Below, piece after piece: positions 10,015-37,245 of a stretch of 64,000 nt of DNA; the first letter of the stretch is position 1, and each line of letters starts with the position of its first letter. This DNA is from Halanaerobium saccharolyticum (GTDB lineage: Bacteria > Bacillota > Halanaerobiia > Halanaerobiales > Halanaerobiaceae). The translations under genes were made by a program, and so were the position numbers. Under the pieces are notes generated by a model. The model saw only the letters and a list, made by a program, of their open reading frames with translations. It did not search any database and was not told the DNA's origin. The stretch covers positions 1 through 64,000 of the forward strand of contig NZ_QAXS01000006.1 of the NCBI RefSeq assembly GCF_003053565.1, given 5' to 3'.

Positions 10015-11730
10015 TTATTTCTCTACAGGAATAATAATTTCTACTTCTGTTCCTTGATCAATTTTACTATCTAATTTTAAACCATATTCTTCTCCATAAT
10101 TAAGTTTTATTCTTTTATTAATATTTAAAATTCCAATCCCATGTTTTTTAAAGTCTTCAATTTCAATTTTTAAAACTCTATTTAAACTATCATTTAATAA
10201 ATTTAATTTTTCTTCCTTAATACCTTTACCATTGTCTGAAATTAAGAATATAATATTTTTATCTTTAATTTCTGCTTTAATCACAATTTTACCACCATCA
10301 GTTTTAGATTCAAGCCCGTGATAAAAAGCATTTTCGACAATTGGTTGTAATAACATTTTTATTATTTTCTTATTTTTTATCTGTTTTTTGATATCTATTT
10401 CGTAGTCAATTCTTTCAGGAAATCTGAGCTTCATTATTCTTAAATAACTTTCTATAATTTCAATTTCTTCTTTTACTTTGACAAATCTATTTGATTTAAT
10501 ACTGTATCTAAAAATATCAGCCATAGCAGTTGAAATATTCATTATTTCTTGACTTTCATAAACCGCACCTATACTACGCATGCATTCTAAAGTGTTATAT
10601 AAAAAATGGGGGTTAATCTGACTTTGCAGAGCAGATAATTCAGCTTTATGCCTAGAAATTTTTGTTTCATAAATTTGTGTTTGCATTTCAATTTCATGTT
10701 TTTTTAAGTTTTCAATTTTTTTTAGCATATTATTAGCATCTTCTACAATAATTCCTAATTCTCCATTGATATCTAAATTTATTCTTTGATTAGCTTTATT
10801 TTCTCCAATTAGATCCATACTTTTAGCAATTTTAATAACGGGTTTAGTTATATTTTGGTTAAGGATAAAACCAATCCCTAGAAGTAAAATAACAAAGGTT
10901 AGACTACTAAAAATAATCATCAATGGAAATTGCTTTAAATCTTCCGCAACTTTATTACGAGAAGTAAAGCCATAGATTCTCCAGTTAGCAAATTTTATTC
11001 TTTCATTTTGAACAATATATTCTGAATTCCGATTATAGTTTTCAAAAGCTTTACTATTATCAATTAAATTACTTTTTAAACTGGAAGTAATAAATCTATC
11101 ATTTTCATCTGCAATAAAAAAAGTCGTATATTGATTAGCAGAAATATCTCTAATGCTTTTTTTAATATTATTAGAGTCAATTCTAATAACAGCAGTTCCC
11201 AGTTTATTATTTTCATTTGAACTGCTATGTAAATCAAAAATTGGGTATAAATAAAAATGAATAATTTCCCCTTTATGTTCTATAATCTCAAACTGGCCTC
11301 TTGTCAAATTATTAAATTTCTCCCCTAAATCATTGACAACTTTTTGGTAAATAAAATAATCTAAATCTCCATAAAAATTTCTCCAGTTATTTTCTTTTAC
11401 TAAAGCAGCAGCTCTAAATTCGGTATTGTTTTCCAAAAGATTATTTATAACATTTTCTACATATGGATGAACCTTAATTTTTTCTTCAATAGTGTCTGCT
11501 TTTAAAAAATCAATTAGATAAGTATTATAAGCAAATTTTTGTGTTCTATTTTCCACTTTATCTAAAGTCTGTTCGACAGCTGTTTTAGTTTGAAAGATTG
11601 TGGATTGAGAATAATCTTTGGCTCTATTTTCTATCACATTTTGGATACTCAAATAACTTACTGTTTGAAAAGATATGATGAAGAAAACAGCTACAGCAAT
11701 CAAGCTAAATATTTTTCTCTTTAAAGTCAT
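10015..11730 (-). CDS. yesM: YesM-type sensor histidine kinase
   Basis: Membrane sensor of a two-component pair with the YesN-like regulator two genes upstream. It has a membrane helix near the N-terminus, a roughly 240-residue extracytoplasmic sensor region, a second helix (SLTFVILLLGIGFIL), then HAMP. The His-kinase core has the phosphorylated His in QSQINPHFLYNTLE, then an ATP-binding domain with NAFYHG and ISDNGKGI. The start is unclear: the only upstream frame opening is a TTG inside the ribosome binding site AAGGAGG. I give the first in-frame ATG, although it is 20 bases from AAGGAGG; a rare ATT about 8 bases away is possible. Likely senses mannooligosaccharides, by context. Confidence 0.92.
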   Translation of the reverse strand: MTLKRKIFSLIAVAVFFIISFQTVSYLSIQNVIENRAKDYSQSTIFQTKTAVEQTLDKVENRTQKFAYNTYLIDFLKADTIEEKIKVHPYVENVINNLLENNTEFRAAALVKENNWRNFYGDLDYFIYQKVVNDLGEKFNNLTRGQFEIIEHKGEIIHFYLYPIFDLHSSSNENNKLGTAVIRIDSNNIKKSIRDISANQYTTFFIADENDRFITSSLKSNLIDNSKAFENYNRNSEYIVQNERIKFANWRIYGFTSRNKVAEDLKQFPLMIIFSSLTFVILLLGIGFILNQNITKPVIKIAKSMDLIGENKANQRINLDINGELGIIVEDANNMLKKIENLKKHEIEMQTQIYETKISRHKAELSALQSQINPHFLYNTLECMRSIGAVYESQEIMNISTAMADIFRYSIKSNRFVKVKEEIEIIESYLRIMKLRFPERIDYEIDIKKQIKNKKIIKMLLQPIVENAFYHGLESKTDGGKIVIKAEIKDKNIIFLISDNGKGIKEEKLNLLNDSLNRVLKIEIEDFKKHGIGILNINKRIKLNYGEEYGLKLDSKIDQGTEVEIIIPVEK

Positions 11731-11772
11731 TTGTTTTATAATATTTTTCACCTCCTTTCTCAATCAATTTTA

Positions 11773-13998
11773 CTATTTAATTTTTTTTAACTCCCATATT
11801 TTTGACTGAAAATCTCCTTTAAAAACTGTCCCATCAGGTTGAGCACCATTAAACTGTTTTGGTAGATCTATACCGATATACATTAATTCATCTCCACCAT
11901 ACAATTTACCATTGTTATTTATCTGATAGATCGCATTAGAATCTAAACCCTTAAGTTTTAAACGTCTAAAGGGGGCATTTGGTTCTGCCAGTACTTTGTA
12001 ATAACCAACTAAAGCCTGATCTTTATTTTCAGAAATAACCATCCAGGCTGTATCTCCACTATTTGAAAATGGACTCAGCAAACGATAAAATTCACCCTGC
12101 TGAATTAAGTCTCTCTTATTTTTATAAAATTTAACCTGTTCTTTGACCTGTTTCTTTTCTTTTTTAGATAAATCACTGAGATCAAGTTCATAACCAAAAT
12201 TACCAAAAAAAGCAGTTTCAGCCCTTGTTTTCAAAGGTGTAACTCTAGCAAGTTGATGATTTGGTACTGCAGATACATGAGCTCCAATTGACGACAATGG
12301 GTAAATGAAACTGGTGCCATATTGAATTTTTAATCTTTCTACAGCATCTGTATTATCACTTGTCCAGGTCTGAGGCATATAATAAAGCATTCCTGGGTCA
12401 AAACGGCCTCCACCACTGGCACAGCTTTCAAATAAAATTTCTGGAAATCTATTTCTAAGTTCTTCTAGAATTTCATATAGTCCTAAAATATAACGATGAG
12501 CCAGTTCTTGCTGGCGTTCTGAGTCTAATTTAGCTGATCCAATTTCAGTCATATTTCTATTCATATCCCATTTTACATAAGCAATATTGGCACTACTTAA
12601 GATATTTGTTAACATTTCTAAAATTTTTTCTCTCACTTCTTTTCGACTCAAATCTAAAACAAGCTGAGTTCTGGCTAAAGTTCTAGTTCTACTTTCTACA
12701 TGAATACACCAATCAGGATATTCTTGATAAAGTTTACTTGCAGGAGATATCATTTCTGGTTCAAACCAGAGGCCAAATTTTAAACCTAAATTATTAATTT
12801 TTTCAGCTAAGGGTGCAAGTCCATTAGGTAACTTTGCCTGATCAACAAACCAGTCACCAAGTGAAGTTGTATCATCATTTCTATTTCCAAACCAACCATC
12901 ATCCAGTACAAATAATTCAAGATCTAAATCAGCAGCAGTTTTAGCAATTTCAAGAATTTTATCTTCATTAAAATCAAAGTAAGTAGCTTCCCAATTATTT
13001 ATTAAAACTGGTCTTTCTTTATCTCGAAACTTCCCTCTAACCAATCTTTCTCGATATAACTTATGATAAATCTGTGATAAATCATTTAAACCAGAATCAC
13101 TATAACTCATTACTACTTCTGGAGTTTGGAAACTTTCTTCACTTTTTAAAAGCCAGTTGAAATCAAAATGATTTATTCCCATTAAGGCCCTGGCTTTATC
13201 AAAAGTATTAACCTGAACTCCAGCAAAAAAGTTACCACTGTAAACAAAAGAAAATCCATAAACCTCTCCCTGATTTTCATCAGTATTTTTTCGGGCCAGC
13301 ATCATAAATGGGTTATGCTGTGCACTACTGGCACCTCTTGTACTTTCTACCGACTGCATTCCAGATATTAAAGATCTTCTCTTAATATGATTTTCTCTAC
13401 TCCAACTTCCGGAAGTTGTAATTAAATCAAAATTAGAGTCTGCAAAATCTACAGACATACTAAATGCTCTTTTTAGTTCAATCTTCTTATCTGACTGGTT
13501 AATAAATTTAGCCGAACGTGTTATAGCATTATATTCATTATAAATACTATAGACTAACTCAACCTTTAATTCTGCCACCTCATCAAAAAGATTAATAATT
13601 AAACTATCTGCTTCTTTATCAGCTTCTACATATGTTGCCGGTAATCCCTTTAATTGATCTTTACCAGTTTTTATTTGATGTCCATTATATTTTAAATTAC
13701 TAACTCTACTTCCATCTGCCAGCTCAACCTGATAGGCAGGCTGTCTAAAGTCGGAATGTCCATAGGCAGGATATTCCTGGGGTATATTATCGAGTAAAAA
13801 TTCATTCTCTGCTTCCCCTTTTAAGTTTTCATCTCTTGTTTCTTTTCTTAATAAATGCGTATAATCAAGATCAGGATTAACTTTTTTACCCCAGTATAAG
13901 TGCAGCAGATGTCCGGTTTTTGCTACCTGAATAATATATGAGAATTTATCGTTATATAAATGAAAAATTTTATTCTGTTGATCAAATTTAATTGGCAT
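11773..13998 (-). CDS. Alpha-galactosidase, GH36
   Basis: Removes alpha-1,6-galactosyl side chains from galactomannan oligosaccharides or raffinose sugars. It has 741 residues, typical of GH36: an N-terminal beta-sandwich (to about 330), a TIM barrel and a small C-terminal beta domain. The barrel motifs are FVLDDGWFGNRNDD, YVKWDMNR (Asp nucleophile), and ESCASGGGRFD followed by TSDNTDA, which carries the acid/base Asp. No signal peptide, so cytoplasmic, acting after import. AAGGAGAG precedes the ATG. It is placed between the regulator and the kinase genes of the same operon, which is unusual order but clear co-direction with 20- and 9-base gaps. Confidence 0.95.
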   Translation of the reverse strand: MPIKFDQQNKIFHLYNDKFSYIIQVAKTGHLLHLYWGKKVNPDLDYTHLLRKETRDENLKGEAENEFLLDNIPQEYPAYGHSDFRQPAYQVELADGSRVSNLKYNGHQIKTGKDQLKGLPATYVEADKEADSLIINLFDEVAELKVELVYSIYNEYNAITRSAKFINQSDKKIELKRAFSMSVDFADSNFDLITTSGSWSRENHIKRRSLISGMQSVESTRGASSAQHNPFMMLARKNTDENQGEVYGFSFVYSGNFFAGVQVNTFDKARALMGINHFDFNWLLKSEESFQTPEVVMSYSDSGLNDLSQIYHKLYRERLVRGKFRDKERPVLINNWEATYFDFNEDKILEIAKTAADLDLELFVLDDGWFGNRNDDTTSLGDWFVDQAKLPNGLAPLAEKINNLGLKFGLWFEPEMISPASKLYQEYPDWCIHVESRTRTLARTQLVLDLSRKEVREKILEMLTNILSSANIAYVKWDMNRNMTEIGSAKLDSERQQELAHRYILGLYEILEELRNRFPEILFESCASGGGRFDPGMLYYMPQTWTSDNTDAVERLKIQYGTSFIYPLSSIGAHVSAVPNHQLARVTPLKTRAETAFFGNFGYELDLSDLSKKEKKQVKEQVKFYKNKRDLIQQGEFYRLLSPFSNSGDTAWMVISENKDQALVGYYKVLAEPNAPFRRLKLKGLDSNAIYQINNNGKLYGGDELMYIGIDLPKQFNGAQPDGTVFKGDFQSKIWELKKIK

Positions 13999-14018: not shown

Positions 14019-14762
14019 TTATTTTAATTTTTTTCTAAACTCAGAAGCTGTTAAATCATGACATTTTTTAAAAACCTTATTAAAATAATAATAATCATTA
14101 TATCCACTTCGAGCAGCTATTTCTTTTATACTCAATTTTTCTTTTTTTAATAATTCTTCCGCTTTTTCCATTCGTAAATCTGTTAAATATTCTGAAAAAC
14201 TTTTGTCTAAGTATTTATTAAACAAATGACAAACATAATTTGAGTTAAAACCAAATTTTTGTGATAAGTTTTTCAAATAAAGTGTTTCTTTGAAATTTTT
14301 ATTAATATATCTCAACATTTTTTTAAATTCTGGATTATCAATTTTTTTAAATTCAATATTTTCTTTTTTGGATGTTTTATTATTTCTTTTATTTAATTTA
14401 TTATTAAGTGAATTTAATATAGAATCAGCTTTTTCTTGTTTAATTGGTTTGAGACAGTAATCAAATGCACCTTCTCTAATTGCTTCCTGGGCATAAGAAA
14501 ATTCTGCATAGCCACTAATTATTACAAATTCACAACGGCAGTCTATTTTTCTGCTTTCTTTTATTAAATCAATGCCAGAATACTCTGGCATTTTAATATC
14601 AGTAAAAACTGCATCAACTTTATTGTTTTTTAAATATCTTAACACTTCTTTGGGATCAGTACTTGACATAGATACATTAAACCCCATTTGCTTGAAATTA
14701 AAAGTTTTTAATATTCCCTGTAATATCCACCATTCGTCATCAACAACTACAACCTGATACAT
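14019..14762 (-). CDS. yesN: YesN-type response regulator (receiver plus AraC HTH)
   Basis: 247 residues, shorter than many YesN proteins (about 370-540) because the linker domain is missing. The receiver has Asp9/Asp10 in VVVDDEWW, the phosphorylated Asp55 in VFTDIKMPEYSG, and Lys in CLKPIK. The C-terminal 100 residues form the double helix-turn-helix of AraC proteins (IKEIAARSGYNDYYYFNKVFK). Such regulators bind tandem direct repeats; a matching pair lies before lplA at 18378-18419. It is phosphorylated by the nearby YesM-like kinase and probably activates the mannan operons. Very AT-rich. Confidence 0.93.
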   Translation of the reverse strand: MYQVVVVDDEWWILQGILKTFNFKQMGFNVSMSSTDPKEVLRYLKNNKVDAVFTDIKMPEYSGIDLIKESRKIDCRCEFVIISGYAEFSYAQEAIREGAFDYCLKPIKQEKADSILNSLNNKLNKRNNKTSKKENIEFKKIDNPEFKKMLRYINKNFKETLYLKNLSQKFGFNSNYVCHLFNKYLDKSFSEYLTDLRMEKAEELLKKEKLSIKEIAARSGYNDYYYFNKVFKKCHDLTASEFRKKLK

Positions 14763-14851: not shown

Positions 14852-15721
14852 CTAGCTTTTTACAGCCCCTAAAGTTAAACCTGATAAAAAATAACGCTGC
14901 AGAAATGGATAAAGCATCATTATCGGAAACATTGTAGTTACAACACTGGCCATTTGTATTCCTTCTGAGAAAGTTTCAACATTTGCCATTGCAGCTGTAT
15001 TTCCCTGAAGAAATTTACTCGCATCTTGAACAATATTCCTTAAAACAAGCTGTAAAGGCATTATATCTGGACTAGTAATAAATAACATACCATGATACCA
15101 TTCATTCCAGCGATTTACTCCATAATATAAAGATAATGTTGCAAGAATTGGTAAAGAAAGAGGTAAAATTATTTTAAACAAAATTATAAAATCATTTGCT
15201 CCATCAATTTTTGCTGATTCTTCTAAAGCATCTGGTATATCATTAAAGAAACTCCGTAATACAATCATATACATAATATTAAAACCCATTGGTAATACCA
15301 TTACTAAAATATTATTTATTAGACCCAAATTTTTAATTAATAAATAATATGGTATTAAACCTCCTGAAAAAAACATTGTAAACAAAATTAGATAATTAAT
15401 AAACTTACGTCCAGGTATATCTTTTGTTAAAGCATATGAAGTTAAAATTGTTATTAACATATTATATACCGTTCCAAGAAATGTTACTATTACTGTTGTT
15501 TTCATACCATTAATAAGCGTCTGATCATTAAAAACCTGTTTATATGCATCCAATGTAATTTCATCTGGCCAGAGCATAAAAGGACTTTCAGCATATACAT
15601 GTTGAGGAACTAAAGAAACTAAAATAGCATTATAAAATGGATATAAAACAGCAAGCCCAAAAATCGTCAATAATATCAATATTATTATATCTACCACTGT
15701 AAATTTTCTCTTAGTCATCAT
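14852..15721 (-). CDS. Sugar ABC transporter permease, LplC/YtcP type
   Basis: 289 residues with six predicted membrane helices. It has the EAA-type cytoplasmic loop that contacts the ATPase: DALEESAKIDGANDFIILFKIILPLSLP, of which EESAKIDGA is the core. It begins MMTKRKFTVVDIII, typical of CUT1-family LplC/YtcP permeases. It pairs with the LplB-like permease 8 bases upstream. No ATPase is encoded in the operon; CUT1 systems of this type use a shared MsmX-like ATPase from elsewhere in the genome. Likely imports mannooligosaccharides or galactosyl-mannosides, judging from the neighbours. Confidence 0.93.
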   Translation of the reverse strand: MMTKRKFTVVDIIILILLTIFGLAVLYPFYNAILVSLVPQHVYAESPFMLWPDEITLDAYKQVFNDQTLINGMKTTVIVTFLGTVYNMLITILTSYALTKDIPGRKFINYLILFTMFFSGGLIPYYLLIKNLGLINNILVMVLPMGFNIMYMIVLRSFFNDIPDALEESAKIDGANDFIILFKIILPLSLPILATLSLYYGVNRWNEWYHGMLFITSPDIMPLQLVLRNIVQDASKFLQGNTAAMANVETFSEGIQMASVVTTMFPIMMLYPFLQRYFLSGLTLGAVKS

Positions 15722-15729
15722 ATCAACTC

Positions 15730-16647
15730 CTATATAATACCTGATTTACCAAACTTTTTAGCTACAGTATTAGCAATCATTAAAAGCATAAAGTTTACTA
15801 CACCATTAAATAATCCGACTGCTGTACTTACACCATAGTCTGGTGCCTGCTGAAAAGATATCCGATAAACATATGTAGAAATAATATCTCCTACATCATA
15901 GACTACTTCATTATAAAGATTAAATACCTGATTAAAACCCGCCACCATAATACTACCGACTGTCATGATGAACATTATCACAACTATATTCTGGATTCCC
16001 GGCCAGGTAATATATTTAATTTTATGCCAGCGATTTGCTCCATCAACAGTCGCTGCTTCATATAAAGTAGGATCAATACCTGCAATCGCAGCTAAATATA
16101 AAATTGTACTCCAGCCAGCTTCCTTCCATACCTCTGAATAAACCAGTAAATATCTAAAAATTCCTTTATTCATTAAAAAATTAATCTGTCCTAAACCTAA
16201 ATTTTCTAAAAGACTATTTAAAGCACCAGTATTACCCAGAAAGTTAAATATTATACCAGATACAATTACCCAGGATAGAAAATGGGGAAAAGTATAAATA
16301 GTCTGCAAGAATCTTCTATATTTTTTCATCTTCAGTTCATTAATTAATAAAGCCAAAATTATACCTATAGGAAATCCTAAACCTAATTTCATTAAAGAAA
16401 TGACAATGGTATTTTTAAAAGCTCGCCAAAATGCTGGCTCACTCCAAATATACAGAAAATTTTCTAAACCAATCCAGGGACTGCCTGTTATCCCCTCATT
16501 TAACATATACCTTTTAAATGCAAGTTGTATTCCATACATCGGAAAATATTTGAATACTAATAAAAAAGCTAAACCTGGAACTAACATTAGATAAATATAT
16601 TTATGTTCAAAAATACTACTAAGTAAATTATTAATTTTAGCTTTCAT
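15730..16647 (-). CDS. Sugar ABC transporter permease, LplB/YteP type
   Basis: 305 residues with six membrane helices. The N-terminal YIYLMLVPGLAFLLVFKYFPMYG is characteristic of LplB/YteP (PMYG core). The EAA loop is LYEAATVDGANRWHKIKYIT. It forms the translocation channel with LplC. It follows the binding-protein gene after a 69-base gap containing a perfect GC-rich palindrome, a frequent device for making more binding protein than permease. Confidence 0.93.
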   Translation of the reverse strand: MKAKINNLLSSIFEHKYIYLMLVPGLAFLLVFKYFPMYGIQLAFKRYMLNEGITGSPWIGLENFLYIWSEPAFWRAFKNTIVISLMKLGLGFPIGIILALLINELKMKKYRRFLQTIYTFPHFLSWVIVSGIIFNFLGNTGALNSLLENLGLGQINFLMNKGIFRYLLVYSEVWKEAGWSTILYLAAIAGIDPTLYEAATVDGANRWHKIKYITWPGIQNIVVIMFIMTVGSIMVAGFNQVFNLYNEVVYDVGDIISTYVYRISFQQAPDYGVSTAVGLFNGVVNFMLLMIANTVAKKFGKSGII

Positions 16648-16716: not shown

Positions 16717-18270
16717 TTATTCTTTTAATAATTCTTGATTTAATTCTTCTAAAATTATATCAACAGTGTCTCTTTTAGAATCAATATATTCTTGCCATTT
16801 ATTTTCTAATTCTTCCATGCTATTTGTTGATACAATTACATCACTAACTTCAGCCATCGTGTCTCCTAATCTAGAATTATATCTGGTATAATCATCTCCA
16901 GCAAACCAGGTTACTTCATATGGTTGAGGTTTCACATAAACATCATCTTCTAATTTTCTTCTTAATATACTTTTTACATCATTTTTAATTTTATCAGCTA
17001 AATTAGGATTATTTAAGTCAAATTCATCATGCATTGTGGTTAATTGAAAAAATCTTACTCCTGTATCATAGGGATTAATTAAATTTCCGTCTTCATCTTT
17101 TTCCCAGAGTATTTCAACTTCACCGTTTTCGTCTATTTGATAATCTTTACCTTCAATACCTAAAGTAGAAAGTCGCTGTCCTTTTTTTCCAGCCATATAA
17201 TTTTCAATTTCTAACCATCTAGCAAGTTTAGCATCAGACATCTCAGGATTATATATTGTTGCACTCCAGTGATCTAAAATTTCCTCTGCAAAATAATTGC
17301 CTTTTGGACTCGTAACAAACATAGGGGAAACGTCGGCAAGTTCTACATTTTTATCGGCTGCAGTAATAGAATTCATTATTCCAGAATAATCTCCAACACT
17401 AATGTTATCAAAATATATTCCTAATTCTCCAGCAATGAATTTATTCTTAGCAGCATCATTGTTAGCAATCGGCTGATCTTCCCAAATTATTCCTTGATCA
17501 TATAACTTTTTTGTTTCTTTTATTCCAGCAAGAAATTCTGGTTGAGCAGGCGCCCATACATACTCTCCATCTTTAACAGTATAAGTATTCATTTGATGAG
17601 TTTGTCTTAAACCTGCAAACCAGGGCCAAGCCCAACCAATACCACCTATACCAATAGTTTTTCTGTTTTCACCAGGGTTTTTTTCTATAAAAGCTTCAGC
17701 CATCTCTACCATTTCATCCCAGCTATACTCGTGATCTTTGTTAAAAAGACCAACCTCTTTAGCCCAATCAACTCGATAGATAAAGTTAAAAGTATCTACC
17801 AAAGGATCTCTCCAATCTACCGTTCCCATTGGTACTGGCATTGCATATAATTCTCCATTTATCTCCCAATAATCGTCTGATTTTAATTTATCTCTGATTG
17901 CCTGTAAATTAGGATATTTATCACCAAATTTTGGAATAGGTTTATATGCTCCCTGACTTGCCCAATTGACATACTCAGTAAATTTATTCTGTAAATCAGT
18001 CCACATAACATCTGGCATATCACCAGAAGCAGTCCAAATTCTAACCTTTTCATCCCAATTTCCCCAGTTTACTGGTCTAAATTCAAAATCAACATTAAAC
18101 TTTTCTTTAATTAAATCCAAACGAGGGTCTTCAAGTAGAGAATCTACATTCATTGTATTAATTACATAAGTATACTCTTTTTCATAATTCTCGTCCTGAG
18201 CCATCACAGCAGTTGACATAAAAGACACTAATAATAGTGAAACTAATAATAAAACAATTTTTTTCTTCAC
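16717..18270 (-). CDS. Extracellular solute-binding protein, LplA/YtcQ type
   Basis: 517 residues. The signal peptide is MKKKIVLLLVSLLL...STAVMAQD, with a type I cleavage site after AMAQ-like residues near 24-25. There is no lipobox cysteine, so the protein is free in a periplasm. The mature part is the large two-lobed CUT1 binding protein (family 1) used with LplB/LplC-type permeases. Conserved aromatic residues (WAWPWF near 210) suit sugar stacking. First gene of the lplABC-yesN-GH36-yesM-yesL operon, with TCCTCC-complement ribosome binding site. Ligand inferred from context: mannooligosaccharides, possibly galactosylated. Confidence 0.92.
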   Translation of the reverse strand: MKKKIVLLLVSLLLVSFMSTAVMAQDENYEKEYTYVINTMNVDSLLEDPRLDLIKEKFNVDFEFRPVNWGNWDEKVRIWTASGDMPDVMWTDLQNKFTEYVNWASQGAYKPIPKFGDKYPNLQAIRDKLKSDDYWEINGELYAMPVPMGTVDWRDPLVDTFNFIYRVDWAKEVGLFNKDHEYSWDEMVEMAEAFIEKNPGENRKTIGIGGIGWAWPWFAGLRQTHQMNTYTVKDGEYVWAPAQPEFLAGIKETKKLYDQGIIWEDQPIANNDAAKNKFIAGELGIYFDNISVGDYSGIMNSITAADKNVELADVSPMFVTSPKGNYFAEEILDHWSATIYNPEMSDAKLARWLEIENYMAGKKGQRLSTLGIEGKDYQIDENGEVEILWEKDEDGNLINPYDTGVRFFQLTTMHDEFDLNNPNLADKIKNDVKSILRRKLEDDVYVKPQPYEVTWFAGDDYTRYNSRLGDTMAEVSDVIVSTNSMEELENKWQEYIDSKRDTVDIILEELNQELLKE

Positions 18271-18361
18271 TTTTTTTCCTCCTGAGTTTAGTTTAGCTAC
18301 CGGTAAGCTATTTATGATTACTTATAAACTTATAATCTTGCCTGTTATTTAACTTAATATA

Positions 18362-18419
18362 ATTATATATCAGAAAATTTCAAATAAAAATGTAATAATC
18401 TCAAATGATTTTGTAATAA
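18362..18419 (-). promoter_or_regulatory. Promoter and tandem 21-bp operator of the lpl operon
   Basis: On the minus strand two adjacent 21-base direct repeats, 18399-18419 and 18378-18398, share TTATTACA-N6-TTTGA and are identical at 16 of 21 positions. A TATAAT (18362-18367) follows, and the proximal repeat covers the expected -35 position. This is the geometry of AraC/YesN activator sites (two helical turns apart, overlapping -35). The operon carries its own YesN regulator, so autoregulation is likely. No good -35 hexamer is seen, as expected for an activated promoter. Confidence 0.7.
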
Positions 18420-18435
18420 ACTCAGATTTTTTCTA

Positions 18436-18463
18436 AAAAAAGCAGAGCTATTACACTCTGCCA
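18436..18463 (-). terminator. Terminator after the GH26 mannanase gene
   Basis: On the minus strand, GGCAGAG and CTCTGC pair around TGTAATAG and run into TTTTTTT. Confidence 0.8.
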
Positions 18464-18473
18464 TTTAGTATTC

Positions 18474-20165
18474 TTAATTTTCTACCCGTTTTAAACTAAC
18501 ATTATCAATATAAACATTTGGTTTTTCTAATCCAACATTAAATTCAATACGAGCATCAGGATCATCTGCTTCCTCCATAGTAAAAGTTCTTTTAATTGTC
18601 TTTTTATTATGGCTAATCTCAATTGAATCATCACCAAAATACATTAAATAATCTCCACCCTGCTCTCCAACTTTCACAAATAATTTTCGCTCAGAATCTG
18701 AATAAATGTCAAAAGTTAGGTTATACTTAATACCCTTTTCTAATTTTATATTAGAATGAATTAATTGAACATGATACTTTTCTTTACCAGGATTTTGAAT
18801 ATTAATTTTAGCTTTTCCCTTATCTGTTTTCAGTTCAGCTTTTGCTCCCTCATTTTCAAAAATATAGCTACTCCAACCAGTTAAGCCATCAGAAAAATCT
18901 CCATTACTTAGCAGATTGGTATTTGCAGCCGCTTTAAAGTGAGCAATTATTTTAATATCATCATTTGCATTTATTTTAATGGGATTCTGTTGACCACTAA
19001 TATTTCCTGACCATTTAGTAAATTCAAAACCTTTATTTGCAACTGCCTCAAAGCAGACTTCAGTTCTTTTATCTACTGTTGTATTATTAGTACTACTCTT
19101 AATTTTACCATTTCCTTTTGCCATTGTATAAATTTTAGCAATTTTTGTTTCTACCTTTTCAGTAATATAATAATCCATAATATTTGGTAGTTCAGATAAG
19201 GTTATTACATATTCACTATTATATACTTTTTTTAGATGTTCTATTGAATTATTATCTATAAGCCAATCAGAATGCCAGGTCATAAACCAAATCCAATCAA
19301 TATTATCTTTTTTTGACAATTCTGGATCAGGCATTACTCCACATTCATGATAAGCTACCGGCTCTCCTAATCCTACTACATCTCGAACGGAGTTATACAT
19401 TTTTTTCTGTGGTTTAGAATCAACATTGTAAGTGTCAGCACCACTTAGATCTACATATTTATCTCCAGGATACCAATCTTTATCAGCATTACCTGCAAAA
19501 CCTAAAAACCAGATAAGATTATTTAAGCCTTTTTCTTCAGTAAAATAATTATACATAAATCTCCATAGTTTATTAAACTTCTCTGGTCCTCCTTTACTCC
19601 ACCAGAACCAACTACCATTATGCTCATGCATTGGGCGCCAGATTATAGGAACATTAGCATTTTTTAATTGTTTTAAATAATTAGCAATTCTATCTAAATC
19701 TGAAATCATTGCTTTATATTCTTTTGTTCCTTCTGTTAAAACTTGATCAATGTTAATTTCTTTTTTGCTATTTTCATAACCTTCTCCAATCGTTGGTGCT
19801 CCCCAGTGCCACATAATTGTCGGGATTCCACCTTTTTGCCACCACTCAATTGCTCTATTAACAACATTTTGATTATCTTTTTCATGAATAAAATCTAGGC
19901 CTCTAATAGCTGGCTGCTTACCTGTGTGTTTATTAATATATTCCAGTTCATAATTAGGTCCATCCACCCAAGTAGACTCCATTTGTCCTGAGAGCATTTT
20001 ATCTCCATTAATAGTATGAAGATAATTAAGTACTGCACGAACTTCTTTACTCGCTTCCGAATTGATAGGTTCAGTTCTAATAATTTTTGTTGGCTCAACT
20101 GCAATAACTGACGTACTAAAAAACATAATCAATAAGATAAGAGAAATAATAGTTAATTTATCCAT
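18474..20165 (-). CDS. Secreted endo-beta-1,4-mannanase, GH26, with carbohydrate-binding module
   Basis: 563 residues. The signal peptide (about 1-22) has no lipobox. The GH26 catalytic domain (about 30-330) has the acid/base Glu in WRPMHEHNGSWFWW and the nucleophile Glu in VAYHECGVM. A small repeat domain follows (about 345-410; GFEFTKWSG...IIAHFKA, of the InlB/Flg_new type). The C-terminal jelly roll (about 412-563, NLLSNGDFSDGLTGWSS) resembles CBM4/9-type carbohydrate-binding modules. It is the only clearly secreted hydrolase of the region and should open mannan outside the inner membrane. It follows the 328-residue GH130 gene by 61 bases and is probably co-transcribed with it. Confidence 0.93.
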   Translation of the reverse strand: MDKLTIISLILLIMFFSTSVIAVEPTKIIRTEPINSEASKEVRAVLNYLHTINGDKMLSGQMESTWVDGPNYELEYINKHTGKQPAIRGLDFIHEKDNQNVVNRAIEWWQKGGIPTIMWHWGAPTIGEGYENSKKEINIDQVLTEGTKEYKAMISDLDRIANYLKQLKNANVPIIWRPMHEHNGSWFWWSKGGPEKFNKLWRFMYNYFTEEKGLNNLIWFLGFAGNADKDWYPGDKYVDLSGADTYNVDSKPQKKMYNSVRDVVGLGEPVAYHECGVMPDPELSKKDNIDWIWFMTWHSDWLIDNNSIEHLKKVYNSEYVITLSELPNIMDYYITEKVETKIAKIYTMAKGNGKIKSSTNNTTVDKRTEVCFEAVANKGFEFTKWSGNISGQQNPIKINANDDIKIIAHFKAAANTNLLSNGDFSDGLTGWSSYIFENEGAKAELKTDKGKAKINIQNPGKEKYHVQLIHSNIKLEKGIKYNLTFDIYSDSERKLFVKVGEQGGDYLMYFGDDSIEISHNKKTIKRTFTMEEADDPDARIEFNVGLEKPNVYIDNVSLKRVEN

Positions 20166-20226: not shown

Positions 20227-21213
20227 CTAAAGTGAATTATTCTTAATAAATTCTACCAGTTCATCTATTTTAGTATAAGCAAGAGCAACTACTGTGTCTG
20301 CTCCACCATAATAAATTGCCATTCTACCAGTATCAGGATCATGTAAAGTTGCACAAGGGAAAGCAACATTAGGTACATCTCCAACACATTCATAATCTTC
20401 TTGTGGGGAAAGTAAATAAGGTTCAGTTCTATATTTTACCTGCCATGGTTTTTCTAAATCTAATAAGGCAGCACCCATGCTGTAGACAAAACCATTACAA
20501 GAATTTAAAACACCATGATAAATTAAAAGCCATCCTTCTGATGTTTCGATTGGAGCTGGCCCTGGTCCTATTTTTGTACTCTGCCAACCACCTTTGCTTC
20601 CCATTACATATCTATGTTCTCCCCAGTGCACTAAATTATTACTCTGGCTTAAAAAGATATCACCAAAAGGTGTATGGCCATTATCACTGGGACGGCTTAG
20701 CATAACATATTTATCATTTATTTTTCTCGGAAACAAAACCCCATTTCTATTGAAAGGTAAAAAAGAATTCTCCATCTGAGTAAAGTTCTTGAAATCTTCA
20801 GTGTATCCCAGTCCAATTGTTGGGCCATGATAACCATTACACCACATTACATAATATTTCCCATCCATTGCTACCACTCTTGGATCATATTTATATTCTG
20901 ACTTACCAATTTCGTCTTTATCATAGTCAAATTCTATCGGTTCTGGCTCAATGTCCCAATTAATTCCATCTTTACTTTTGCCAGCATGAATATTCATATT
21001 TCTTGCCTTATCATCAACTCTAAAGACACCAGCAAAACCCTCTTTGTATGGAACAACAGCACTATTAAAAATACTATTAGAATTTGGAGTCGCATCACGC
21101 GGAATTATTGGGTTTTTCTTTGAACGCCAAACTACATTGTCACAATTCGCAGGTTTTTCCTCCCAGGGAATATTTGGCAGGCTTTCTCCATAAATTTTGA
21201 TTTCTTCACTCAT
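20227..21213 (-). CDS. GH130 beta-1,4-mannooligosaccharide phosphorylase (GH130_2-like)
   Basis: 328 residues, five-bladed beta-propeller. GH130 enzymes cleave beta-mannosides with inorganic phosphate to give alpha-mannose-1-phosphate. The probable catalytic Asp lies in [21 protein letters not shown]. Phosphate-binding residues of the family would be Arg/His such as those in YHGVLN. The short length and the C-terminal [28 protein letters not shown] suit the mannooligosaccharide phosphorylase subgroup rather than the mannosylglucose subgroup, but subgroup assignment needs a tree. No signal peptide: it acts on imported oligosaccharides. First gene of a unit with the mannanase. Confidence 0.88.
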
Positions 21214-21258
21214 AAATTAACACTCCTTCAATTTGTTTTAATTCTGTAAATTAATAAT

Positions 21259-21311
21259 ATTATAAAACTATCAATTTGAACATGAATATAATTCAGATTT
21301 TTTTGTAATTT
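21259..21311 (-). promoter_or_regulatory. Promoter and YesN-like box of the GH130-GH26 unit
   Basis: On the minus strand AAATTACA-N6-TCTGA (in 21291-21311) matches the distal lplA repeat at about 15 of 21 positions. A weaker, slightly shifted second copy lies at about 21269-21290. A TATAAT follows at 21259-21264. The site suggests that the same YesN-like regulator controls the extracellular mannanase and the phosphorylase. Confidence 0.45.
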
Positions 21312-21335
21312 ACTCAGTTATATCTCAAAAAACTA

Positions 21336-21354
21336 ACAGGCCAAAAAGACCTGT
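21336..21354 (-). terminator. Terminator after the 400-residue GH130 gene
   Basis: On the minus strand, ACAGG and CCTGT pair around TCTTTTTGG and are followed by TAGTTTTTTG. Confidence 0.7.
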
Positions 21355-35732: not shown

Positions 35733-35843
35733 TAATAAACACCCCTTTAAATTATTTTGTGATGCAAAATGTCACTCTCTTTTGTCTTAAGGGATTATTA
35801 ACTTATAAAAAGTAAGAGTGAGCAAATTTTTAGCAATTCCACT

Positions 35844-35892
35844 AATCTTCATTAAATTATTTAATTTAATGCTTAAAACTTTGACGAAGATT
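35844..35892 (-). promoter_or_regulatory. Palindromes in the leader of the Opp-type operon
   Basis: A perfect CATTAAATTA/TAATTTAATG palindrome (35850-35871) lies inside a larger AATCTTC...GAAGATT inverted repeat (35844-35850, 35886-35892). They fall between the downstream promoter and the binding-protein start, so they would be transcribed as leader RNA. Role unknown. Confidence 0.45.
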
Positions 35893-35900
35893 TAAAAGAA

Positions 35901-35966
35901 TTTGCGCTAAAAATTACTAAAACGATTTCTTAGTTTAATTATAGCGCAAATTTGTAGACAATTCAA
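35901..35966 (-). promoter_or_regulatory. Promoter P1 of the Opp-type operon with overlapping 9-bp inverted repeat
   Basis: On the minus strand TTGAAT (35961-35966), a 17-base spacer and TATAAT (35938-35943). The -10 overlaps one arm of TTTGCGCTA (35901-35909)/TAGCGCAAA (35942-35950). Between the arms lies ACTAA-AACGATTTC-TTAGT, which resembles the CG-centred operators of LacI/CcpA proteins. The layout suits repression of the operon by the divergent LacI-family protein or catabolite control. Confidence 0.65.
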
Positions 35967-36004
35967 GCTAATTTTTTAATTTTTTTATTTAATTTTCAAT
36001 GTAC

Positions 36005-36091
36005 GAAAGTTATTAGTCGCCACCTAGGTTGATTTTCGTGATTAACGAAATAACTTTCTTTTATTATAGCATTGTTTTTTCGTTTTTTCAA
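36005..36091 (-). promoter_or_regulatory. Promoter P2 of the Opp-type operon with 10-bp inverted repeat and TTTCGT operator
   Basis: On the minus strand TTGAAA (36086-36091), a 17-base spacer and TATAAT (36063-36068). Just downstream, GAAAGTTATT (36005-36014) pairs with AATAACTTTC (36049-36058). Nested within this, TTTCGT-GATTA-ACGAAA (36034-36050) has the size of a LacI-family operator. Confidence 0.6.
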
Positions 36092-36137
36092 ACTATTTTA
36101 AAAAATAATTTGATTTTATTTATTTTTGAACATATGT

Positions 36138-36172
36138 TATACTAAAAGAAATAAGTTTCGCTGATTTTGAAA
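36138..36172 (+). promoter_or_regulatory. Promoter and possible operator of the LacI-family gene
   Basis: An extended -10 (TGTTATACT, TATACT at 36138-36143) reads toward the regulator gene. TTTCG-N8-GAAA (36156-36172) follows; it has the same 17-base length and the same TTTCG/GAAA ends as the site at 36034-36050, which suggests autoregulation. Confidence 0.4.
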
Positions 36173-36234
36173 GAAAAAAACAATTTATTAAGAATTAATT
36201 TCGTAATCATTTTTTTAAGAAAGGAAGAATTATT

Positions 36235-37245
36235 ATGAGTGTTACAATTAAAGATATTGCTGAAAAAGCAGAAGTATCAATCTCAACAGTTTCTAAATCA
36301 CTGAATGATAAAGGTGGTGTCTCTCCTGTTACCAGACAGAAAGTCTTAAATATTGCTAAAGAAATGGGCTATTTTTCTTTCCATTCTCAGGCAAATTTAA
36401 AAACTCATAATATTGCTTTTCTCATGAGTCGAAATCATATTCCTATTTTTAATAATCCCTTTTATACCAGGGTTATTGCAGGAGTGGAAATAGAAGTTGA
36501 AAATTTTGATTATAATCTTTTGTTTTCTACAATTATACTTGATGCCCTGGATAATAAAGAAGTTCCTGCTATTATCAGTCAGAATAAAGTTGATGGTTTA
36601 ATTCTGGCTGGAGCTGATATCAATCAAAAAATGATTAGAGCCATTGAAAAACTTAAGTTTCCAACAGTTTTAGTTGATAATTATTTAAGCTCTCCGATTA
36701 TGGATTCCATTGTTTCTGATAATTTTTCGGGAGCAATGAAAGCAGTTAATTATTTAATTAGTATGGGCCACAAAAATATTGGTTATGCAGGAGGACCTCT
36801 GAGCCATCCCAGTTTTGAAGAAAGATACAAGGCTTTTAAATTAGAAATGATGGAAAATGATTTAGAAATTAATAGTCATTTCGTAAAAATTAAAAGTGAA
36901 TTTGGCCAGGATATGGACCAAAAACTGGCAAAAGAATTCCTAAAGGAAGAAAAACTTCCTACTGCTATTTTTGCGGCCAATGATGCAACTGCGATTGGGC
37001 TATTGCAGACCTTTAATAAATATGGAGTTAAGGTTCCTCAGGATATTTCAATTATTGGCTTTGATAATATTGAACTCACTGCTTTTACTTCGCCGTCAAT
37101 TAGCACTATTTCTGTCGATAAAGAAGGAATGGGCCAGGAAGCTGCACGAAAATTATTTGAGCGCATCCAAAATCCTGAAAAGAAATCAACTAAATCAGTT
37201 ATCCCCACAGAATTGATTGAAAGGGAATCAGTGAGAGAAATTTAA
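36235..37245 (+). CDS. LacI-family transcriptional regulator
   Basis: 336 residues. The N-terminal LacI helix-turn-helix (TIKDIAEKAEVSISTVSKSL) and hinge are followed by a periplasmic-binding-protein-like sugar domain (about 60-336), with FAANDATAIGLL and DISIIGFDNIEL typical of the family. AAGGAAG precedes the ATG. Divergent from the Opp-type oligosaccharide operon, from which it is separated by about 500 bases of palindromic DNA. It is most likely the repressor of that operon; the inducer should be a beta-oligosaccharide. No terminator with a T tract was found after it; a small AGAATCA/TGATTCT stem is at about 37270. Confidence 0.93.
   Translation: MSVTIKDIAEKAEVSISTVSKSLNDKGGVSPVTRQKVLNIAKEMGYFSFHSQANLKTHNIAFLMSRNHIPIFNNPFYTRVIAGVEIEVENFDYNLLFSTIILDALDNKEVPAIISQNKVDGLILAGADINQKMIRAIEKLKFPTVLVDNYLSSPIMDSIVSDNFSGAMKAVNYLISMGHKNIGYAGGPLSHPSFEERYKAFKLEMMENDLEINSHFVKIKSEFGQDMDQKLAKEFLKEEKLPTAIFAANDATAIGLLQTFNKYGVKVPQDISIIGFDNIELTAFTSPSISTISVDKEGMGQEAARKLFERIQNPEKKSTKSVIPTELIERESVREI

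Follow-up and report, generated by a model that had tools for sequence, protein, structure and literature searches.

A Tandem TGAG-N4-TTACA Site as the Predicted Operator of a YesN-Type Response Regulator in an Apparent Mannan Utilisation Cluster of Halanaerobium saccharolyticum

Introduction

YesN-type response regulators are common in Firmicutes, and few of them have a defined DNA site in the literature on comparable systems. A tandem repeat lies in front of an lpl-type uptake operon within the 64,000-nucleotide stretch of Halanaerobium saccharolyticum DNA that was analysed here (the window). It raises the question of which bases form the operator and which protein reads them. An earlier note on the same DNA had proposed two adjacent 21-base copies as the operator of the regulator encoded in this operon. 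The tandem site most probably serves as operator for the YesN-type response regulator that the operon itself encodes, predicted from sequence comparison to be a class-II-like activator of a galactomannan-oligosaccharide regulon (probability of roughly 0.85). The coordinates of the features are collected in Table 1.

Table 1. Genes and regulatory elements of the locus, with the basis of each assignment
Feature	Position	Strand	Basis or conservation
YesM-type histidine kinase, proposed sensor	10015..11763	-	PF06580, PF02518
GH36 alpha-galactosidase	11773..13998	-	PF02065
YesN-type response regulator, proposed binder	14019..14762	-	PF00072, PF12833
ABC permease	14852..15721	-	PF00528, just under cut-off
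ABC permease	15730..16647	-	PF00528
lpl-type solute-binding protein, first gene of the operon	16717..18270	-	position before two permeases
Conserved leader element TAGCTTACCGGTAGCTA, possible second operator	18294..18310	-	sequence conservation
-10 box TATAAT, promoter 1	18362..18367	-	kept in both relatives at equal distance
-35 position (TTTTTA, poor match); 17-base spacer to the -10 box	18385..18390	-	inferred from sequence
Proximal half-site TGAGATTATTACA	18391..18403	-	10/13 in H. salsuginis; TGAGTTTTTTGCA in L098
Distal half-site TGAGTTTATTACA	18412..18424	-	identical in H. salsuginis; TGAGTTATGTACA in L098
Intrinsic terminator of upstream genes, just before the operator	18441..18462	-	terminator-like hairpin also in H. 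salsuginis
GH26 mannanase, behind the GH130 gene	18474..20165	-	PF02156
GH130 phosphorylase, first gene behind the second operator	20227..21213	-	PF04041
-10-like TATTAT, promoter 2	21254..21259	-	spacing equal to promoter 1
Second operator, proximal half-site TGAATTATATTCA	21283..21295	-	N8 after TGAGTAAATTACA
Second operator, distal half-site TGAGTAAATTACA	21304..21316	-	pair second in the window by the other-genome matrix
Intrinsic terminator before the second operator	21336..21354	-	sequence

Results and Discussion

Genes of the Operon and the Surrounding Cluster

The solute-binding protein encoded by the first gene of the operon gave no Pfam match, and no relatives were detected in a peptide-pattern scan of the GTDB genomes. 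The operon had been said to carry an AraC-type regulator, and it does: in the product of the regulator gene a receiver domain is followed by two AraC-type helix-turn-helix motifs (PF00072, PF12833/PF00165), and the receiver residues D8, D9, D55, S83, and K105 are present. The partner kinase is encoded nearby, parted from the regulator by the GH36 gene. The operon also encodes a DUF624 protein and an acetyl xylan esterase-like protein. Genes for the GH26 mannanase, two GH130 phosphorylases, a GlcNAc_2-epim family protein (cellobiose-epimerase-like), and a GH2 mannosidase-like protein are found upstream on the same strand. The gene set looks like a galacto/glucomannan utilisation cluster.

Among 12 genomes of the genus, close orthologs are found only in H. 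salsuginis, where the binding protein is 59% and the regulator 67% identical to those of the window. The permeases of the two species are 83-86% identical and the kinases 46%; the binding protein and the kinase, the two presumed ligand-sensing proteins, are the most diverged. The GH36 gene separates the regulator gene from the kinase gene here; in H. salsuginis these two are neighbours, and the GH36 gene is found downstream of the esterase-like gene. A Clostridiaceae metagenome-assembled genome (L098) encodes a regulator 50% identical to that of the window. Among the genes scanned in the L098 locus, which spans 16.7 kb, no regulator other than the two-component pair was found.

The 21-Base Tandem Repeat

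Copy 1, TTATTACAAAATCATTTGAGA (18419-18399, minus strand), and copy 2, TTATTACATTTTTATTTGAAA (18398-18378, minus strand), are directly adjacent and identical at 16 of 21 bases. Ten bases separate the end of the second copy from the TATAAT of promoter 1. The sequence agrees exactly with the earlier description of the copies, their similarity, and their distance of about 10 bases from the -10 box. The motif drawn from that description, TTATTACA-N6-TTTGA, was searched genome-wide without mismatch and occurs exactly twice in the 3.2-Mb genome, both times in this repeat; the exact form is confined to this promoter. When the 203-base intergenic region was shuffled with its dinucleotides preserved, 16 or more matches in a 21-base tandem arose in 2 of 1000 cases; with the offset free to vary between 12 and 40, an equally good repeat arose in 16 of 300, so that the repeat alone is modest evidence. 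Its conservation in other genomes, described below, places it far beyond chance. The best-matching register of the repeat sits further upstream, with 17 of 21 matches at 18391-18432.

Identification of the Half-Site

The half-site was defined as TGAG-N4-TTACA through comparison with the promoters of H. salsuginis and L098. As read from five promoters in three genomes, the unit is TGAGNNNNTTACA; two of the sites are in the window, two in H. salsuginis, and one in L098, and sites within one cluster are only partly independent of each other. The period between the half-sites is 21 bases in all five. The hexamer at the fixed -10 place is TATAAT or TATTAT in 5/5 sites, against a background of 2.7% of intergenic positions for -10-like hexamers (at least 5/6 matches).

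The H. salsuginis promoter contains TGAGTTTATTACA without change, TGAAGATATTACA at 21 bases, and TATAAT at an unchanged distance. Before the transporter genes of L098, TGAGTTATGTACA-N8-TGAGTTTTTTGCA is followed by 23 bases and then TATAAT; the -10 box of promoter 1 likewise begins 23 bases after the proximal half-site. The transporter promoters of the window, H. salsuginis, and L098 can be aligned without gaps from TGAG through the -10 box. The repeats, whose fate in relatives the earlier note had made decisive for its proposal, are thus kept in both H. salsuginis and L098.

The tandem arrangement of half-sites two helical turns apart was correctly recognised in the earlier note. The frame TTATTACA-N6-TTTGA has to be replaced: it omits the distal TGAG and includes the unconserved TTTGAAA. 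The TGAG upstream of the distal copy (18424-18421), which lies outside the span first described, is kept in 5/5 sites. The proximal TTTGAAA (18384-18378) falls in the spacer between the -35 and -10 positions; TTGCA appears at the position of TTTGA in H. salsuginis, and the proximal TTTGA is absent from L098 and from the second sites of both the window and H. salsuginis. The half-sites in these two second sites are degenerate.

Architecture of Promoter 1

Read along the minus strand from the GH26 mannanase gene to the solute-binding-protein gene, the intergenic DNA shows a terminator, the tandem repeat, TATAAT, a leader with a conserved element, a Shine-Dalgarno sequence, and a GTG start codon, in that order. 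The 13-base proximal core ends at 18391 and directly adjoins the -35 position. This contact and the 21-base period agree with the AraC-type layout that had been claimed from two-turn spacing and overlap with the -35 box. The hexamer there, TTTTTA, matches the consensus poorly, as a promoter that depends on an activator would be expected to do. A monomer of the AraC family usually spans about 17 bases, and the bound protein would therefore extend into this hexamer. A different -35/-10 pair, TTGAAA-16-TATATT, is present in the window and missing in H. salsuginis, and for this reason TATAAT was preferred as the -10 box.

Further Sites in the Window and in H. salsuginis

A matrix constructed from the H. 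salsuginis and L098 sites only was used to score the 127,934 positions of the window. Site 1 was obtained at the top (31.7) and the site at 21316-21283 second (22.1), followed by a shifted overlap with site 1 (14.4) and the next match (10.2). The second operator precedes the GH130 gene, which starts at 21213 and is followed by the GH26 gene. An alternative TATAAT for promoter 2 appears 5 bases upstream, at 21264-21259. The equivalent gap in H. salsuginis measures only about 31 bases and could not accommodate a promoter of this kind.

When the matrix was constructed from window site 1 alone, the L098 site ranked first, and in the H. salsuginis contig the top two places went to the orthologous promoter and the second site, in that order. 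This second site is located before a GH36-like gene (stretch L114, 7171-7204). A GH26 ortholog was not found in the H. salsuginis stretches compared. At the H. salsuginis locus the mannanase gene has no counterpart, and the terminator and operator that flank it here are intact.

Specificity of the Motif across Genomes

The genome scans were made with sequence patterns. With up to 2 mismatches allowed, the double motif matched 10 times in the 12 genus genomes; the two regulator-bearing genomes account for 8 of these matches, and the same motif read backwards as a control gave none. Half of these 8 are the promoters described above. The matches on contig C65 of the H. saccharolyticum genome were rejected since they sit in a CRISPR-like repeat array (L142, L143; repeat GTTTCAATCCTTGTTGTAGTGGACTCAGTCATTAGAC), as was a match on C38, which lies beside a terminator without a downstream gene on its strand; the remaining matches were rejected because they fall within open reading frames or at their margins. 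Promoter-placed sites are found among the 12 genomes only in the two that have the regulator.

A stricter motif built from the known sites gave 4 matches in 398 genomes of the phylum, namely 3 known sites and 1 isolated match, and its control gave 0. Three of the four are in the two genomes with the regulator. In the L098 genome, searched by itself, the transporter promoter is the sole match within 2 mismatches. The reduced form TATTACA-N14-TATTACA with one mismatch is no more frequent than its backwards control and is too loose for use alone. A comparison of the DNA in front of genes near other YesN-type and related loci, weak because it pooled many non-target regions, showed no overall enrichment of 21-base repeats, a point against the assignment.

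Alternative Assignments of the Site

The true operator could instead follow the earlier frame, so that the proximal copy (18398-18378) would lie across the -35 box and extend into the spacer. The 16/21 match of the copies and the restriction of the exact motif to this repeat are in its favour, as are the 19/23 bases that H. salsuginis retains from the proximal half-site to the -10 box. The loss of TTTGA in H. salsuginis, in L098, and at the second sites, set against an upstream TGAG that is kept in every site, makes this frame improbable. We consider it still a little less probable that the site is bound by another regulator, such as a different AraC-type protein or the LacI-type protein encoded at 36235-37245. 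Genomes of this type should encode many AraC-type proteins, and the LacI-type gene also accompanies the H. salsuginis cluster (69% identical), but the L098 locus contains no further regulator gene among those scanned, and the distribution of the site in the genus tracks the response regulator. The LacI-type protein in particular is an unlikely binder of the tandem repeat because the repeat is not palindromic, unlike LacI-family sites.

The repeat would be a chance product of AT-rich promoter DNA only with very low probability. The shuffles that matched it at some offset are consistent with such an origin; against it stand the conservation in two other genomes at identical spacing, the recovery of the site at promoters that had not been sought, and the zero matches of the controls. 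The assignment as the operator of the YesN-type regulator, with the half-site TGAG-N4-TTACA, is preferred.

Proposed Mechanism

We infer the binding protein, the dependence on phosphorylation, the activation, and the inducer as follows. Mannan or galactomannan oligosaccharides would be sensed by the kinase, which would phosphorylate the regulator. Each 13-base half-site would be read by one AraC-type DNA-binding domain, so that two phosphorylated regulators could pair head to tail, 21 bases or two helical turns from each other and on the same face of the DNA. The proximal regulator would be placed against the poor -35 hexamer and would recruit RNA polymerase at the -35 region in a class-II-like activation. 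The uptake operon would thereby be expressed, including the regulator and kinase genes; positive feedback is expected because both belong to the controlled operon. The second site would place the GH130-GH26 genes under the same regulator. The predicted target genes are compatible with a single pathway. The operator points to galactomannan oligosaccharides as the substrate of the transporter and to the role of the two-component pair. The 34-base operator, the promoter geometry, and the two candidate promoters per species are directly testable.

Comparison with Known Systems

The araI1-araI2 sites of E. coli have a 21-bp, same-face layout, and their half-site sequences are unrelated to those described here. 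E. coli AraC occupies these adjacent half-sites, and its promoter-proximal binding recruits RNA polymerase (PMC4760080). AraC senses arabinose directly, whereas a membrane kinase is expected to signal in the present system. Direct repeats with a 21-bp period are also known for the AraC-family RhaR sites (PMC3870299); the period is shared, but the rhamnose regulators are one-component proteins with a different motif.

CuaR and XydR of Ruminiclostridium cellulolyticum are two-component AraC-type activators that adjoin ABC-transporter and glycosidase genes. The helix-turn-helix domain of XydR binds upstream DNA, and CuaR activates the transporter promoter in an E. coli reporter; no clear operator sequence is settled in the passages of these reports considered here (PMC5663094, PMC3572039), in contrast to the 34-base site predicted here. 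The mannan-oligosaccharide ABC transporter mosABC of Caldicellulosiruptor bescii is predicted to be activated by the local two-component system MosSQ and co-regulated by the LacI-family protein MosR, and the AraC-type sites described in the same work take the form of tandem repeats that lie upstream of the promoter (PMC8579813). The locus described here, in a different lineage, likewise combines a mannan-type uptake operon, a local two-component system, and a LacI-type gene in the cluster. The kind of site is thus already known; the exact sequence, the register, and the second site in front of the mannan-degrading enzyme genes are added here.

The Leader Element and the LacI-Type Gene

Between promoter 1 and the start codon lies TAGCTWACCGGTAGCTA, which is conserved at 16/17 positions (H. 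salsuginis form TAGCTAACCGGTAGCTA) and which has no other exact match in the genome. Its bases admit two readings, one a palindrome around ACCGGT and the other an 11-base direct repeat of TAGCTWA. Formation of an RNA hairpin was considered and rejected, the stability being not unusual (z values of 0.5 and -0.6). The LacI-type regulator gene is found within the cluster in both the window genome and H. salsuginis. By analogy with MosR, it may be conjectured that the leader element is a repressor site through which the LacI-type protein acts at this promoter. A wider scheme is offered tentatively, as possible rather than probable. The response regulator would activate at the tandem site, and a second protein, perhaps the LacI-type one, would block at 18310-18294; the promoter with the site at 21316-21283 would have been gained in this lineage, being absent in H. 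salsuginis, which has its own site before the GH36-like gene. An inverted repeat, GAAAGTTATT...AATAACTTTC, is present before the LacI-type gene (35733-36234) and is possibly the operator of the LacI-type regulator.
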